From contig NZ_JABEQN010000003.1 of the NCBI RefSeq assembly GCF_014174165.1, forward strand, positions 186,001 through 250,000: 64,000 nucleotides of DNA, given 5' to 3'. The position numbers and the translations under genes were made by a program. Origin of the DNA: Gluconacetobacter dulcium (GTDB taxonomy: Bacteria > Pseudomonadota > Alphaproteobacteria > Acetobacterales > Acetobacteraceae). Shown here in pieces: positions 57,962 through 62,460 of the stretch (position 1 is the first letter of the stretch; each line of letters begins with the position of its first letter). Under the pieces are notes generated by a model. The model was not told where the DNA came from. It was given only the letters and a program-made list of their open reading frames with translations, and ran no database searches.

Positions 57962-60622
57962 ATGGCGCGGGAGCACAGTCATTCCATGACCCTACGGCGA
58001 AGCCTGATCACAGCCACCATTCTCGCCATACAGTTCGATATCGCCAGCGCGATCGCCCAGACCGCGACGACATCCGAGACGCCTGCATCCGGCCAGCGTT
58101 CCGCCGCAAAGAGCCGGAAAATATCGGGAACGACCGCCAATCCCGCCGGAACGCACACCGCAGCGACACCGGCAGTCGCCGCGTCCTATCAGGCGCCGCC
58201 CGATGCCGGCGAGGCCGTGATCGTGACCGGCACCCATGACAGCAACCGCCATGCCCGCCAGAGCAGTTCGCCGATTTCGGTCATCACGGCGGCTACCCTG
58301 ACCCGTTCAGGGCAATTGAACCTGGCGGATGCGCTGACGCGCACCTACGCCTCCATCAACATACAGGCCAAAGGCAGCGACACCGCCGCCCTCACGTCGT
58401 CAATCCGCATGCGCGGCCTCAATCCCAATCAGGTGCTCGTTCTGGTCGACGGCAAGCGCCGCCACGTCACGGGTAACATCATCCAGAACTCCGGCCCCAG
58501 CTTCGGCGCCACCGGCGTCGACCTGAACATGTTGCCCGCCAACATGATCGACCATATCGAAGTTCTGGAAGACGGCGCCGCCGCCATGTACGGTTCCGAT
58601 GCGATTGCCGGCGTCGTCAACATCATTACGAAAAAAACAAGCCATGGACTGAATGTCTCGGCACAAACCGGCGCAAATGCCTATAACGGCGATGGCTGGC
58701 AATATCAGGTCAATGCCGATGGCGGTTTCAAGCTCGGCAATGACGGCTACATGCACCTGAGCGGACAGGTCTATCACACCGATCATTTCGTCACGAAAGG
58801 TGCCAAGGACCATCGTCTTCTCGGCTACTGGCCGGCAGGGGCCAACACCAGCGGCTATTATACCGGCATTGTGGCGAACCCGCTCCCCGTTCCCGTCACC
58901 TCGAACAAGATCATGAGCACGCCGGAAGAAACGCGCGAAAACCTCGGCATCGATTTCGGAAAACCCATTGGTGAAAAAGTCGATTTCTACGGACAGATCA
59001 CCTATGGCCACCGGCATGCGGAAGCGATCCAGAATTACCGCGTCCCCAATATCGCGCCTACGATCTATCCTTCCGGTTTCTCCCCGCTGGAAACGATCGA
59101 AGAAAACGACTATGCCGCGATGCTCGGCATGAAGGGTCGTGATTTCTTCGGTTTCGACTGGGATATCAGCACCCAGTATGGCGCGGACGAAGATAATATC
59201 GGCAACAAGAACACGGCCAATCCGGGGCTGCTGAGCAGCCGGTGCAACAACGGCAACGTCGCCAATATCTCGACCGTCGGCTGCGGCATCACGCCGACCA
59301 CGGTACACACGCAGAGCTACCGCAACGCCCAGTGGACCAACAATCTGGATTTCCGGCGGCATATCGACATCTTCCATACGGTCCCGATGACGCTGGCCCT
59401 CGGTGGCGAACATCGTCTGGAAACGTACGAGATCGTGGCCGGTGAACCCTCGTCCTACCAGGTCGGCGGAACCCAGGGTTATGTCGGCATCGCACCGCAA
59501 AGTGCCGGAAACTGGAGCCGCGATATCTGGGCGGCCTATATCGACGGCGACTTCCACATGCTGAAGAACTGGGATCTCGATTTCGCCGGCCGTTTCGAAC
59601 ATTATACCGATGTCGGCAATACCCAGAACGGCAAGATCTCCACCCGCTACGACATCACGAAACGGGTCGCCGTCCGCGGCACCATCAGCACGGGCTTCCG
59701 TGCTCCGACCATGGCGGAACAGCATTTCAGCACCATGAGCGTCAACCCGACGGGCGCCGCCGGCCTTCTCCCCGTCAGTTCCGCCGCCGCCGCGCTGCTC
59801 GGCGCCCGGCCGCTGAGACCCGAATATTCGGTCAATGCCAGCGGCGGCCTGGTCGTCGAACCCGTCGATGGTTTCCATGTCGAGGCCGATGTCTATCAGA
59901 TCAATCTCCGCAACCGCATCGGCCAGGGCGGCGTGACCAAGGGGCTGACCGCGATCAACGCCATTCAGGCCATGGGCTATGCCCTGCCGGTCAACGATAT
60001 CGATCCGCAGAACGTCTCGGCCTACTATTTCGCCAATATCGGCAGCACCCGCACGCAGGGCCTCGACATCAAGGCCGATTACACGTTCCACCTGCACCAA
60101 TACGGTAACCTGATGCTCACGATGGCGCTGGACCTCAACCGCACGCGCCTGCATCACGCCGCCACGTCAGGGACAGGCGCCTCCCTGCTTAACGCGCAGA
60201 CGATCGGCTATCTCACCACGGCCTACCCGCGCAGCAAGATCATCCTGAACGCCTATTATACGATCGCAAACTGGGACTTCAACATTCGCCAGACCCGTTA
60301 TGGCGAAACGACCGACATGATGACCTATCAGGACTGGACGAACGGCTCGCTCACCTGCGCGAGCGGCGGCGCCCTGCGCTACTCCAACTCCTGCTTCGGC
60401 CAGTTCAAGAACACCCCCCGCTGGCTGACCGATCTCGAGATCGGCTATCGGGTCGACCGGCGCTGGCATCTGGCGGTCGGCGCCAACAACGTCTTCAATG
60501 TTCGTCCGCGCAGACTGCCGGACATCCTCAACAGCGGTGGGTACACGGTCTATGATGCAAGTTCCTCGCAGGTGCCTATCTCGGGTGGCTATTATTATGG
60601 GCGCGTGAATGCCACATTCTGA
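57962..60622 (+). CDS. TonB-dependent outer-membrane receptor
   Basis: Outer-membrane active transporter powered by TonB-ExbBD, 886 aa. A signal peptide (SLITATILAIQFDIASAIAQ near residues 14-33) is followed by a low-complexity linker, the TonB box-like AVIVTGT (85-91), the plug domain (about 95-220; LTSSIRMRGLNPNQVLVLVD, EVLEDGAAAMYGSDAIAGVV then NIITKK) and a barrel to the terminal Phe (YYYGRVNATF). Start: ATG 57962; ATG 57986 directly precedes the signal peptide and is equally possible. The substrate is not evident; the TPR-less plug and long linker resemble catecholate/sugar-type receptors. It precedes the D-amino-acid-oxidase-like gene by 78 nt. Confidence 0.93.
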   Translation: MAREHSHSMTLRRSLITATILAIQFDIASAIAQTATTSETPASGQRSAAKSRKISGTTANPAGTHTAATPAVAASYQAPPDAGEAVIVTGTHDSNRHARQSSSPISVITAATLTRSGQLNLADALTRTYASINIQAKGSDTAALTSSIRMRGLNPNQVLVLVDGKRRHVTGNIIQNSGPSFGATGVDLNMLPANMIDHIEVLEDGAAAMYGSDAIAGVVNIITKKTSHGLNVSAQTGANAYNGDGWQYQVNADGGFKLGNDGYMHLSGQVYHTDHFVTKGAKDHRLLGYWPAGANTSGYYTGIVANPLPVPVTSNKIMSTPEETRENLGIDFGKPIGEKVDFYGQITYGHRHAEAIQNYRVPNIAPTIYPSGFSPLETIEENDYAAMLGMKGRDFFGFDWDISTQYGADEDNIGNKNTANPGLLSSRCNNGNVANISTVGCGITPTTVHTQSYRNAQWTNNLDFRRHIDIFHTVPMTLALGGEHRLETYEIVAGEPSSYQVGGTQGYVGIAPQSAGNWSRDIWAAYIDGDFHMLKNWDLDFAGRFEHYTDVGNTQNGKISTRYDITKRVAVRGTISTGFRAPTMAEQHFSTMSVNPTGAAGLLPVSSAAAALLGARPLRPEYSVNASGGLVVEPVDGFHVEADVYQINLRNRIGQGGVTKGLTAINAIQAMGYALPVNDIDPQNVSAYYFANIGSTRTQGLDIKADYTFHLHQYGNLMLTMALDLNRTRLHHAATSGTGASLLNAQTIGYLTTAYPRSKIILNAYYTIANWDFNIRQTRYGETTDMMTYQDWTNGSLTCASGGALRYSNSCFGQFKNTPRWLTDLEIGYRVDRRWHLAVGANNVFNVRPRRLPDILNSGGYTVYDASSSQVPISGGYYYGRVNATF

Positions 60623-60700
60623 CATCCGCTCTTCATCTGGATGGAGGGAGGGGACAAACGGCCCCTCTCCGGCGCCACTTCTGCACTGGGCTTCGCGTAT

Positions 60701-61984
60701 ATGACCAATCGGAACAGGACTATCGGACGGAGGCATCTTGTCGCGGGGGCCTCCGCCTGCGGCGTCGTCGGCGCATTCGCGGGGGGGCGCCTCGTGCGCG
60801 CCCAAACCCCGCAGCCGGCTGCGCCTTCTCCCCCCGCGCAGCCAGCCCCGCTCCCCCGGCGGCGCATCAGGCTTCAGCCCTTCGATCTGCGGGCCGACCA
60901 GATCACCGACATCAAGGTCTGTCTGCGCCCCTTTCGCGCCATGGGTCCGCGTTTTGACGTCGAGCATGTGGGGAACAAGCTGGTCTTCCATAATTATGGC
61001 CATGGCGGCAGCGGCTGGTCCCTCTCCTGGGGCTCGGCGAGCGTGGTCGTCGAGAAGGTCTCCACCACCCTGCAACGCAAGGTCGCGGTCATCGGCTGTG
61101 GCATCATCGGCCTCACCACCGCCCTTACCGCACAACGCGCCGGCTTCGACGTCACGATCTACACGAAAGACCTGCTGCCCCGGACGCGGTCGGTTCGCGC
61201 CAACGGCAGTTGGACGCCGGATTCCCGCATTTCCCTGACCGCTCCGGCCGGCCCGGAATTCGCCGACCTGTGGGAAAGAATGGCCCGGATCTCCTGGGCC
61301 ACCTATCGCGACTATCTCGGCCTGCCCGGCAATCCCGTGGAATTCATAGAACATTTCTCCTTATCCGACCGGCCGTTCGATGCGCCGCATGAGGAAAGGC
61401 CCGATGGTCGCACCGGCGATTACGCCTCGACCGGAATGCCCCAGCACGGCTCCGAATTCGCCCGCTATTCGGGTCGCATCAAGGATATCGTCCCGGCGGC
61501 TGAAGAACTCACGCCCGCGGAGAGCCCCTTCGCTGCCCCGTACGCCAAGCGCGGTTCGCTCATGCTCTATAATTTCGCCTCCTACGGGCATCTGCTGATG
61601 TCGGAATTTTTCCAGGCTGGCGGCCATGTCGTGATCCGGGAGTTCCACGACCCCAGCGAACTGACCTCCCTGCCGGAAAAGGTGATCATCAACTGCCCCG
61701 GCTACGCGGCGCGCGACTGGTGGAACGATAAGAGCCTCATCCCCGTCAGGGGGCAGACGGCATGGCTCCCGCCCCGGCCGGACCTGCCATACGGCCTGCA
61801 TTATCACGGTGCATCGGCCGTCTCGAAAACGGACGGGCTGATGGTTCAGGCCTATGATCTGGATAATGAGGGCGAGATGGGAAGCGTCGGCAATTCCTTC
61901 GAACATCCCGACCGTTCCGAGTCGGAAAGAGCGATCAAGGTTCTGGCGGACCTGTTCGCCCGTTCGCCCATTTCGGAAGGGTGA
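60701..61984 (+). CDS. Tat-exported D-amino-acid-oxidase-like FAD oxidoreductase (apparently circularly permuted)
   Basis: Periplasmic flavoprotein of the D-amino-acid oxidase (DAO) superfamily, 427 aa from ATG 60701 (ATG 60641 adds 20 residues). The N-terminus carries a twin-arginine signal, TIGRRHLVAGASACG with a hydrophobic core and an A-Q-like cleavage area, then a Pro-rich linker (about 36-52). Next comes LRPFRAMGPR and HNYGHGGSGWSLSWG (residues 75-111), normally the C-terminal DAO signature with the carboxylate-binding Arg, and only then the FAD motif VAVIGCGIIGLTTAL with Gly132/134/137. IINCPGYAARDWW and IPVRGQTAWL follow as in DAO. The protein ends soon after, lacking the signature at the normal place. 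A cytochrome c gene follows 5 nt later, suggesting a dehydrogenase coupled to the respiratory chain. Substrate unknown. Confidence 0.85.
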   Translation: MTNRNRTIGRRHLVAGASACGVVGAFAGGRLVRAQTPQPAAPSPPAQPAPLPRRRIRLQPFDLRADQITDIKVCLRPFRAMGPRFDVEHVGNKLVFHNYGHGGSGWSLSWGSASVVVEKVSTTLQRKVAVIGCGIIGLTTALTAQRAGFDVTIYTKDLLPRTRSVRANGSWTPDSRISLTAPAGPEFADLWERMARISWATYRDYLGLPGNPVEFIEHFSLSDRPFDAPHEERPDGRTGDYASTGMPQHGSEFARYSGRIKDIVPAAEELTPAESPFAAPYAKRGSLMLYNFASYGHLLMSEFFQAGGHVVIREFHDPSELTSLPEKVIINCPGYAARDWWNDKSLIPVRGQTAWLPPRPDLPYGLHYHGASAVSKTDGLMVQAYDLDNEGEMGSVGNSFEHPDRSESERAIKVLADLFARSPISEG

Positions 61985-61989
61985 GCCCC

Positions 61990-62460
61990 ATGCCCCGCAC
62001 GCCATTCGCCCGCCTCATGCGTTCCCGCGTGTTCCATGCAGCGGCCCTGAGCATCGCCTCCGCCTCGCCGCTTCACGCCGCCAGACCTGTTGCCGCTCCC
62101 GTTCCGTCCTTCACGGCCGAGCAGGCGCAGCACGGGGCGGATCTCTACCAAACCGCCTGCGCCATGTGCCATGGCGCCGATCTCAACGGCAATTTCCAGA
62201 CGCCGTCCCTCAAAGGGCGGCTGGTGGCAAACTGGGCGGGAACACCGCTTTCCCGTCTGACAGGCTATATCCAGCGCGCCATGCCGTTAATGGCTCCCGG
62301 CACGCTATCGACGGAAGATGCAACCGCGCTGGTCGCGTTTCTTTTGCATGAGAACGGCGCCGCCCCCGGCAAATCGCCCCTGCCGGCCGTGGAAAAACGG
62401 CAGGCATTTCTTAAATTTCCTGCCCTTGCGATAGGACCTGACAAGTCCTCTGCCAAATAG
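61990..62460 (+). CDS. Small monohaem c-type cytochrome
   Basis: Exported class I cytochrome c, 156 aa. A signal peptide (FHAAALSIASASPLHAA, about residues 15-31) precedes the haem-binding motif CAMCH at 57-61, and the likely methionine axial ligand lies in MPLMAPGTLS near 103-108. Two family marks, GADLNGNFQTPSLKG and FLLHENG, surround the haem. It should take electrons from the oxidase-like protein in the periplasm and pass them to a terminal oxidase or a further cytochrome. The frame begins at GTG 61981; I prefer ATG 61990 with GGAAGG upstream. It follows the flavoprotein stop by 5 nt. Confidence 0.9.
   Translation: MPRTPFARLMRSRVFHAAALSIASASPLHAARPVAAPVPSFTAEQAQHGADLYQTACAMCHGADLNGNFQTPSLKGRLVANWAGTPLSRLTGYIQRAMPLMAPGTLSTEDATALVAFLLHENGAAPGKSPLPAVEKRQAFLKFPALAIGPDKSSAK

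Follow-up and report, generated by a model that had tools for sequence, protein, structure and literature searches.

A D-amino acid oxidase homologue with reversed segment order, encoded between a TonB-dependent receptor and a cytochrome c in Gluconacetobacter dulcium

D-amino acid oxidase (DAAO) is among the best-studied flavoenzymes. In the canonical order of DAAO and DASPO, the Rossmann strand with the FAD-binding GxGxxG comes first in the chain and the HNYGHGG signature comes last. Natural circular permutation of proteins is a known phenomenon. None of the open-access PMC matches listed describes a permuted DAAO, in agreement with the first-pass annotation of the present locus, which knew of no published case. 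PMC9844085, a paper on the discovery of new DAAOs, contains none of the terms ‘permut’, ‘N-terminal’ or ‘signal peptide’. We describe here a gene of Gluconacetobacter dulcium whose product carries the DAAO/DASPO segments in reversed order, together with its relatives in two phyla.

The window, by which we mean the whole 64,000-nucleotide stretch of contig NZ_JABEQN010000003.1 that was analyzed, contains the gene and the two neighbors listed in Table 1. The open reading frame and its translation were checked, and the first-pass annotation was right about the coordinates and about three motifs, LRPFR at residues 75-79, HNYGHGGSGWSLSWG at residues 97-111 and VIGCGIIG at residues 130-137 of the 427-aa protein. 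The translation likewise bears out its claim that the signature precedes GxGxxG and that the protein stops where the signature normally begins; the C-terminal end reads ...KVLADLFARSPISEG, also written ...AIKVLADLFARSPISEG. A second, normally placed copy, which that annotation might have overlooked, was sought in the translation of the 427-aa ORF, and no other HNYGHGG-type signature is present at the C-terminus. An alternative in-frame ATG upstream at 60641 would yield a protein of 447 aa, and the start at 60701 fits that of the close relatives L002 and L003. The four named relatives nearest to the protein all come from Gluconacetobacter (L001-L004, identity 90-97%). In the G. liquefaciens DSM 5603 orthologue (L001/L012) a frameshift falls within the region of the signal peptide, and in that of G. 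tumulicola LMG 27725 (L004) the reading frame stops after 118 codons, with the match continuing in the same frame. As these two of the four orthologues look damaged, the window copy may be dispensable in some species.

Table 1. Features of the permuted gene, its product and its flanking genes (positions in the window)
Feature	Position	Strand	Details and basis
TonB-dependent receptor, 886 aa, directly upstream	57962..60622	+	PF00593 E=1.8e-35; PF07715 E=2.6e-21
Circularly permuted DAAO-like flavoenzyme gene	60701..61984	+	427 aa; sequence, profiles, predicted fold
Predicted Tat signal peptide (GRRHLV..., hydrophobic stretch, LVRA^QT)	60701..60802	+	read from sequence
Pro/Ala-rich linker, residues 35-60, low confidence	60803..60880	+	sequence; block pLDDT 56-72
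Former C-terminal segment in its new place, residues 61-123 (strand with the Arg, HNYGHGG loop, former last helix)	60881..61069	+	
RPFR; R79 is the aligned counterpart of pig Arg283, which binds the substrate carboxylate	60926..60937	+	alignment
HNYGHGG signature, residues 97-103	60989..61009	+	H97, Y99-G103, G105, S109-G111 invariant (34 rows)
Former N-terminal four fifths, residues 126-427 (from the Rossmann start as far as the helix preceding the Arg strand)	61076..61981	+	VIA-align
GCGIIG, FAD dinucleotide-binding GxGxxG, residues 132-137	61094..61111	+	G132, G134, G137 invariant (34 rows)
Monohaem cytochrome c, GTG start overlapping oxidoreductase stop	61981..62460	+	PF13442 E=2.4e-13

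The reversed order is read directly from sequence comparisons. For residues ~51-123 the only counterpart in canonical oxidases is the C-terminal end, and residues ~126-420 correspond to the N-terminal four fifths. When the N-terminal piece (residues 60-121, 62 aa) was searched alone against the sequences of solved structures, its best match was to residues 325-372 of 7ct4 (E=3.1e-8), and 17 of the 18 distinct sequences at E<=1 were DAAO or DASPO, matched at their C-terminal ends. The remainder of the protein, searched alone, matched the N-terminal parts of DAAO and DASPO more weakly (6rkf, E=3.1e-5; 1c0i, E=1e-4). The Pfam model of the DAO superfamily (PF01266) scored 76.7 bits against a curated cut-off of 27.9, in two stretches, with model positions 272-352 upstream of positions 1-86; the GxGxxG at residues 132-137 is present but lies behind the C-terminal part of the model and does not open the catalytic chain. 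A paralogue on contig 30 of the same genome has model positions 293-350 ahead of 1-73, and nine other proteins of the genome follow the model unbroken over ~1-350 (50 matches in the genome scan).

The family profile aligned to DAAO/DASPO chains as two pieces in swapped order in the three full alignments examined; against 7ct4, profile 104-382 corresponds to chain residues 18-304 and profile 51-110 to chain residues 319-378. A canonical profile, built from eight canonical bacterial DAAOs, matched each of the 34 proteins in our alignment A1 as two significant pieces whose order was reversed. These members had been preselected by a script demanding the reversed motif order, and the test was therefore repeated without the filter on loci fetched by similarity alone. 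The order was reversed in 34 of the 38 loci (30 of 34 genomes); the four others (L059-L062) are weak, non-permuted matches (E ~5e-7 to 6e-6) and were left out of the family counts. The same profile produced no domain match at iE<0.01 in 2040 shuffled sequences. In the window protein, canonical profile positions 253-322 fall at residues 51-123 (E=2.3e-13 for the N-terminal segment) and positions 2-197 at residues 128-353. With a canonical Streptomyces DAAO as the query, a search of 229 genomes matched alphaproteobacterial genes in two reversed pieces; in G223, query residues 239-319 are followed ~25 bases on by residues 8-241. Among the ORFs read, none was an intermediate with the signature at both ends. 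Both pieces of the protein are thus homologous to one protein, with the old ends joined and new ends elsewhere, and the protein is almost certainly a natural circular permutant of DAAO/DASPO.

The predicted structures are consistent with this conclusion. AlphaFold2, supplied with a 34-row family alignment, produced one compact fold (mean pLDDT 88.6, pTM 0.84), in which residues 61-420 are mostly above 90 pLDDT and the blocks of the N-terminal segment reach 95-99. The model has strands at residues 70-75, 87-90 and 93-97, a helix at 109-120 and then a strand at 127-131; the ~6 residues between that helix and the last strand correspond to the short linker that the first-pass annotation placed where the old termini meet. 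VIA-align placed residues 126-420 of the model on residues 1-268 of pig DAAO (1kif_A; Z 19.6, rmsd 2.6, 248 aligned) and residues 124-420 on residues 2-263 of human DASPO (Z 20.6), leaving the last ~70 residues of the target unmatched because these structural alignments are sequential. For 1kif the sequential TM-scores were 0.50/0.61. The superposition covers four fifths of the protein in order, and the moved segment itself is folded by AlphaFold2 with high confidence. The model of a second member, L055, which is 28% identical in A1, was comparable (pLDDT 89.8, pTM 0.88), with residues 101-358 on pig DAAO residues 1-269 (Z 22.1). Because the models align to pig DAAO 1-268 and 1-269, the cut would fall after the helix near pig residue 268; sequence and predicted fold together show the new ends between the helix ending there and the Arg-bearing strand. 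The place of the N-terminal segment in the DAAO-like fold is judged from sequence homology, secondary structure and the pLDDT and pTM values. Structure prediction, a check proposed in the first-pass annotation, gave a DAAO-like fold and no sign of an unrelated domain at the N-terminus. We recognized no solved permuted DAAO among the best 60 of the 83 matched sequences, or among the best 50 rows of the fold lists, where canonical DAAOs stand on top.

We compared the active-site positions by the numbering of pig DAAO, in which Arg283 binds the substrate carboxylate and Tyr228 is an active-site residue. The HNYGHGG signature of DAAO and DASPO is present in full in the window protein, and the His307- and Gly313-equivalents are retained in 41 of 41 permuted rows. 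The Arg283-equivalent, R79 in the window protein, is Arg in 40 of the 41 permuted rows and in seven of the eight canonical rows. The Tyr228-equivalent is Ser in the window protein and Tyr in 14 of the 41 permuted rows; the canonical rows have Tyr (5/8) or Phe (3/8). A 29-row clade, with the window protein among its members, carries a V/I/F-Q pair on the next strand at a place mostly taken by GG in canonical rows, and those of its rows that were read show G-S/A-GWSL following the signature. With Ser as its Tyr228-equivalent, the window protein has a substrate pocket unlike that of DAAO; the alignment suggests that carboxylate binding is probably kept and the rest of the pocket changed.

All genome counts for the family are lower bounds because the searches score few candidates per genome. 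In the order, at least 26 of 150 genomes match the window protein at E<=1e-10, its own included, and the reversed order was read in 25 of these 26; the remaining genome (G067) holds pieces at contig ends only. In the phylum, at least 24 of 398 genomes match at E<=1e-5, 20 of them with the permuted form (own included), and in the class at least 14 of 289 match the family profile at E<=1e-20, all reversed. In the class of G358, at least one of 274 genomes matches at E<=1e-20, namely G358 itself. Plasmid records with the permuted form came from Kozakia, Niveispirillum, Rhizobium, Bradyrhizobium and, outside the phylum, Nonomuraea gerenzanensis; in Mesorhizobium the form is read by collinear match only, split over two reading frames. 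The family thus takes in Alphaproteobacteria, Nonomuraea (Actinomycetota) and a single genome from a different class of proteobacteria, and the reversed order recurs across ~26-97% identity and in a second phylum. The suggestion that similar bacterial sequences may exist unremarked also held, as the records seen with an annotation say ‘FAD-dependent oxidoreductase’.

We built a tree of 51 rows, comprising 41 permuted rows (rotated in silico), eight canonical bacterial DAAOs and two rows that are ThiO-like by eye. In this tree, which is without eukaryotic DAAOs, has few canonical rows (8) and contains one very long branch (L133), the 41 permuted rows fall on one side of a branch with support 95/91, which fits a single origin. 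L133, from a 1.9-Mb alphaproteobacterial genome (G659), is a very divergent permuted DAO whose signal is Sec-like and not Tat-like by eye. The permuted DAO of G358 (L048/L136), the member from the other proteobacterial class, is closely preceded by an in-frame stop and shows no signal to the eye; horizontal transfer followed by decay is possible there.

The Tat signal reported in the first-pass annotation is present in the sequence. It was read by eye and by a simple script as GRRHLVAGASACGVVGAFAG...LVRA^QT, also written MTNRNRTIGRRHLVAG...LVRA^QT, with the twin arginine, the hydrophobic stretch and the cleavage site in place, and it is conserved: the script found the twin-arginine pattern in 26 of 27 cytochrome-paired loci, the 27th being L001, which is frameshifted there. 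Tat substrates fold with a cofactor such as FAD before export. From its signal sequence, the window enzyme is very probably exported via Tat. Lipobox and Tat were scored by simple pattern in the 64 permuted loci examined, two of which (L129 and L162) look like one species. A lipobox was found in none of the 27 Acetobacteraceae loci outside genus g21, as against Tat plus lipobox in 26 of the 37 others, and by these patterns the family members look mostly exported. In L058 and in the members from rhizobia and Nonomuraea, the chain begins a short way ahead of the RPxR strand with no convincing signal by eye, and these look cytosolic; the ‘tat’ flag that the script gave L140 was discounted because it lies upstream of the annotated start. 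Since permuted members that look cytosolic exist, export does not on its own account for the permutation. On the rhizobial plasmids, the signal-less permuted DAO adjoins a thiamine-diphosphate enzyme in all three loci (L140, L160 and L161). In L140 and L161 it comes after a gene annotated as a FAD-binding oxidoreductase (the BBE domain was tested for in L140), and in L160 it is split into two annotated reading frames.

The window copy is flanked only by the TonB-dependent receptor and the cytochrome c gene, with no acylase beside it. In L001-L003, the three further Gluconacetobacter loci that were tested, a receptor copy (90-96%) precedes the orthologue; G043 (L107) has a 66% copy ahead of it, and 49-50% copies lie beside the permuted gene in three g21 genomes. 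The cytochrome c gene has an alternative start, an ATG at 61990, and homologues of it were recorded in the comparison of 46 loci. A CxxCH ORF on the same strand, within ~50 nt of the stop, follows the permuted gene in 27 of 27 Acetobacteraceae loci outside g21, and in the 37 other permuted loci no CxxCH ORF was found within 1.3 kb downstream (less at a contig or stretch end). The 27 loci represent a difference between groups and are far from being 27 independent events, because the cytochrome group is one lineage.

The contig-30 paralogue, which is 67% identical to the window protein, has different surroundings. It and its relatives lie in a cluster with a LysR gene, PF00144 serine hydrolases, a canonical DAO protein whose nearest solved structure is a glycine oxidase, and an S45 acylase whose nearest solved relative is D-succinylase (7eby, E=1.9e-156). 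D-succinylase works on derivatives of D-amino acids and reportedly recognizes the L-isomer as well (PMC11241749, PMC7431475). The Acetobacteraceae cluster of LysR, PF00144 and canonical DAO genes was observed in L080, L095, L100-L103, L109 and L115, with the acylase in all but L109, and looks like a D-amino acid scavenging locus. Among the 46 loci compared, an acylase homologue lies near the permuted gene in seven (L080, L095, L100-L103 and L115). The acylases of L080 and L095 start with twin-arginine sequences, and L095 combines acylase, PF00144 hydrolase, permuted gene and TonB receptor in one locus. A remnant third copy of the permuted DAO (L081; G000 contig 8, 25568-25936), with an in-frame TAG and beside a canonical DAO and a piece of an S45 acylase, has the look of a contig-30 cluster copy that has decayed. 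The cluster contents point to D-amino acids that would be released outside the cytoplasm; the window copy is without such neighbors.

We considered two other explanations of the order itself. The N-terminal segment is short (~60 residues) and could in principle be a domain of unrelated origin that arrived at a short motif by convergence. However, some 50-70 residues are aligned, at E=3e-8 to a solved DAAO and E=2.3e-13 to the canonical profile, the model shows strand-strand-strand-helix in this segment, and the rest of the protein is without it; we consider such convergence very improbable. A sequencing, assembly or gene-fusion artefact, for which nothing was found to speak, is scarcely credible, given the same order in the 30 genomes of the unfiltered search, in 25 of the 26 matching genomes of the order and in a second phylum. 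An assembly artefact is excluded because so many genomes agree. As to function, we consider it reasonably likely, taking the statement as a whole, that the gene encodes a permuted DAAO/DASPO homologue, probably Tat-exported with FAD, which would act as a periplasmic flavin dehydrogenase feeding the cytochrome c. The old C-terminal unit (Arg strand, HNYGHGG loop and last helix) now stands ahead of the Rossmann strand that was once at residue 1. The motif and its conservation suggest that the chain folds with FAD in the cytoplasm and is then exported to the periplasm by Tat. There it may oxidize a D-amino acid or related amine that the TonB receptor system brings in or that is set free in its vicinity. 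The gene order suggests that electrons would pass to the cytochrome c of the next gene and on to the respiratory chain. On the strength of that gene order there is a good chance that the cytochrome c is the electron acceptor; a D-amino acid as the substrate of the window copy has about an even chance.

The same permuted fold could still belong to an oxidase that uses O2 and makes periplasmic hydrogen peroxide, the cytochrome c neighbor being due to chance or regulation. DAAO and DASPO are established oxidases, canonical DAAOs use oxygen, and none of the 37 relatives outside the cytochrome lineage has an adjoining cytochrome c ORF, yet they keep the Arg and HNYGHGG. In the cytochrome lineage, however, the cytochrome c gene comes directly next in 27 of 27 loci, where the lipobox of many other members is missing, suggesting a partner, and we regard the oxidase as unlikely. 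The enzyme might act on another amine or an imino acid with its diverged pocket, a reading that falls a little short of an even chance; the Ser at the Tyr228-equivalent and the V/I/F-Q pair that replaces the canonical GG in the 29-row clade favor it, and the conserved Arg283-equivalent and the D-succinylase-like acylase adjoining the paralogue speak for a D-amino acid.

On a broader and more tentative scenario, which we think possible but would not bet on, a single permutation of a soluble DAAO freed the start of the chain from the buried FAD-binding strand. It would have given rise to a mostly extracytoplasmic family coupled to respiration in one of two forms, lipoproteins with a lipid anchor or soluble enzymes of the periplasm that pair with a dedicated cytochrome c. 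The acetic acid bacteria would then have a module for D-amino acid respiration in the periplasm, made up of a TonB receptor, a D-specific acylase, other hydrolases, the permuted dehydrogenase and the cytochrome c. The open-access papers searched describe no module of this kind. Such a module, if shown, would be the more novel part of the system, and coupling to the cytochrome c, if true, would be a new bacterial route for respiratory electrons from D-amino acids outside the cytoplasm. A natural permutant with a whole clade is also a ready-made experiment on how segment order bears on folding, FAD binding and export, and the permuted protein offers an alternative scaffold for DAAO biosensors. 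The family further highlights a blind spot, in that annotation dependent on motif order and sequential structure aligners catch only about four fifths of permuted proteins. A viral origin was also explored and rejected. BFVD gave four matches at E<=0.001 (a FAD dependent oxidoreductase, a D-arginine dehydrogenase, a glycosyl transferase and one uncharacterized protein), none of them informative, and tblastn of the Nonomuraea relative in phage records gave one short match. PADLOC returned one meaningless Rossmann match.

Compared with known systems, the permuted protein shares its fold, GxGxxG, RPxR arginine and HNYGHGG with DAAO and DASPO (pig 1kif, human 6rkf, Rasamsonia 7ct4). After rotation, the core lengths are also alike, at 317-365 in the permuted rows, where they depend on the chosen cut point, and 315-364 in the canonical rows, of which five were measured. 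It differs from these enzymes in the permuted order, the Tat signal, the Ser at the Tyr228-equivalent and the cytochrome c neighbor. The eight canonical bacterial DAAOs, from Streptomyces, Streptantibioticus, Nocardia, Tsukamurella, Mycobacterium, Burkholderia and Vibrio (L138, L139, L142-L144, L158, L159 and L163), have the normal order and sit on the branch next to the permuted clade. The DadA-type D-amino acid dehydrogenase belongs to the same superfamily and resembles the window enzyme in the proposed chemistry, that of a dehydrogenase feeding respiration. Membership in DadA itself was rejected, the protein scoring 31.1 and 37.8 bits for PRK00711 and PRK12409 against cut-offs of 383 and 494; L059-L061, which are DadA-like by eye, have the normal order and no HNYGHGG. 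The gluconate, sorbitol and fructose dehydrogenases of acetic acid bacteria are GMC-type flavoproteins and not members of the HNYGHGG group. What the periplasmic FAD and cytochrome c dehydrogenases of these bacteria have in common with the window enzyme is the proposed layout only, an exported flavoprotein with a cytochrome c subunit.
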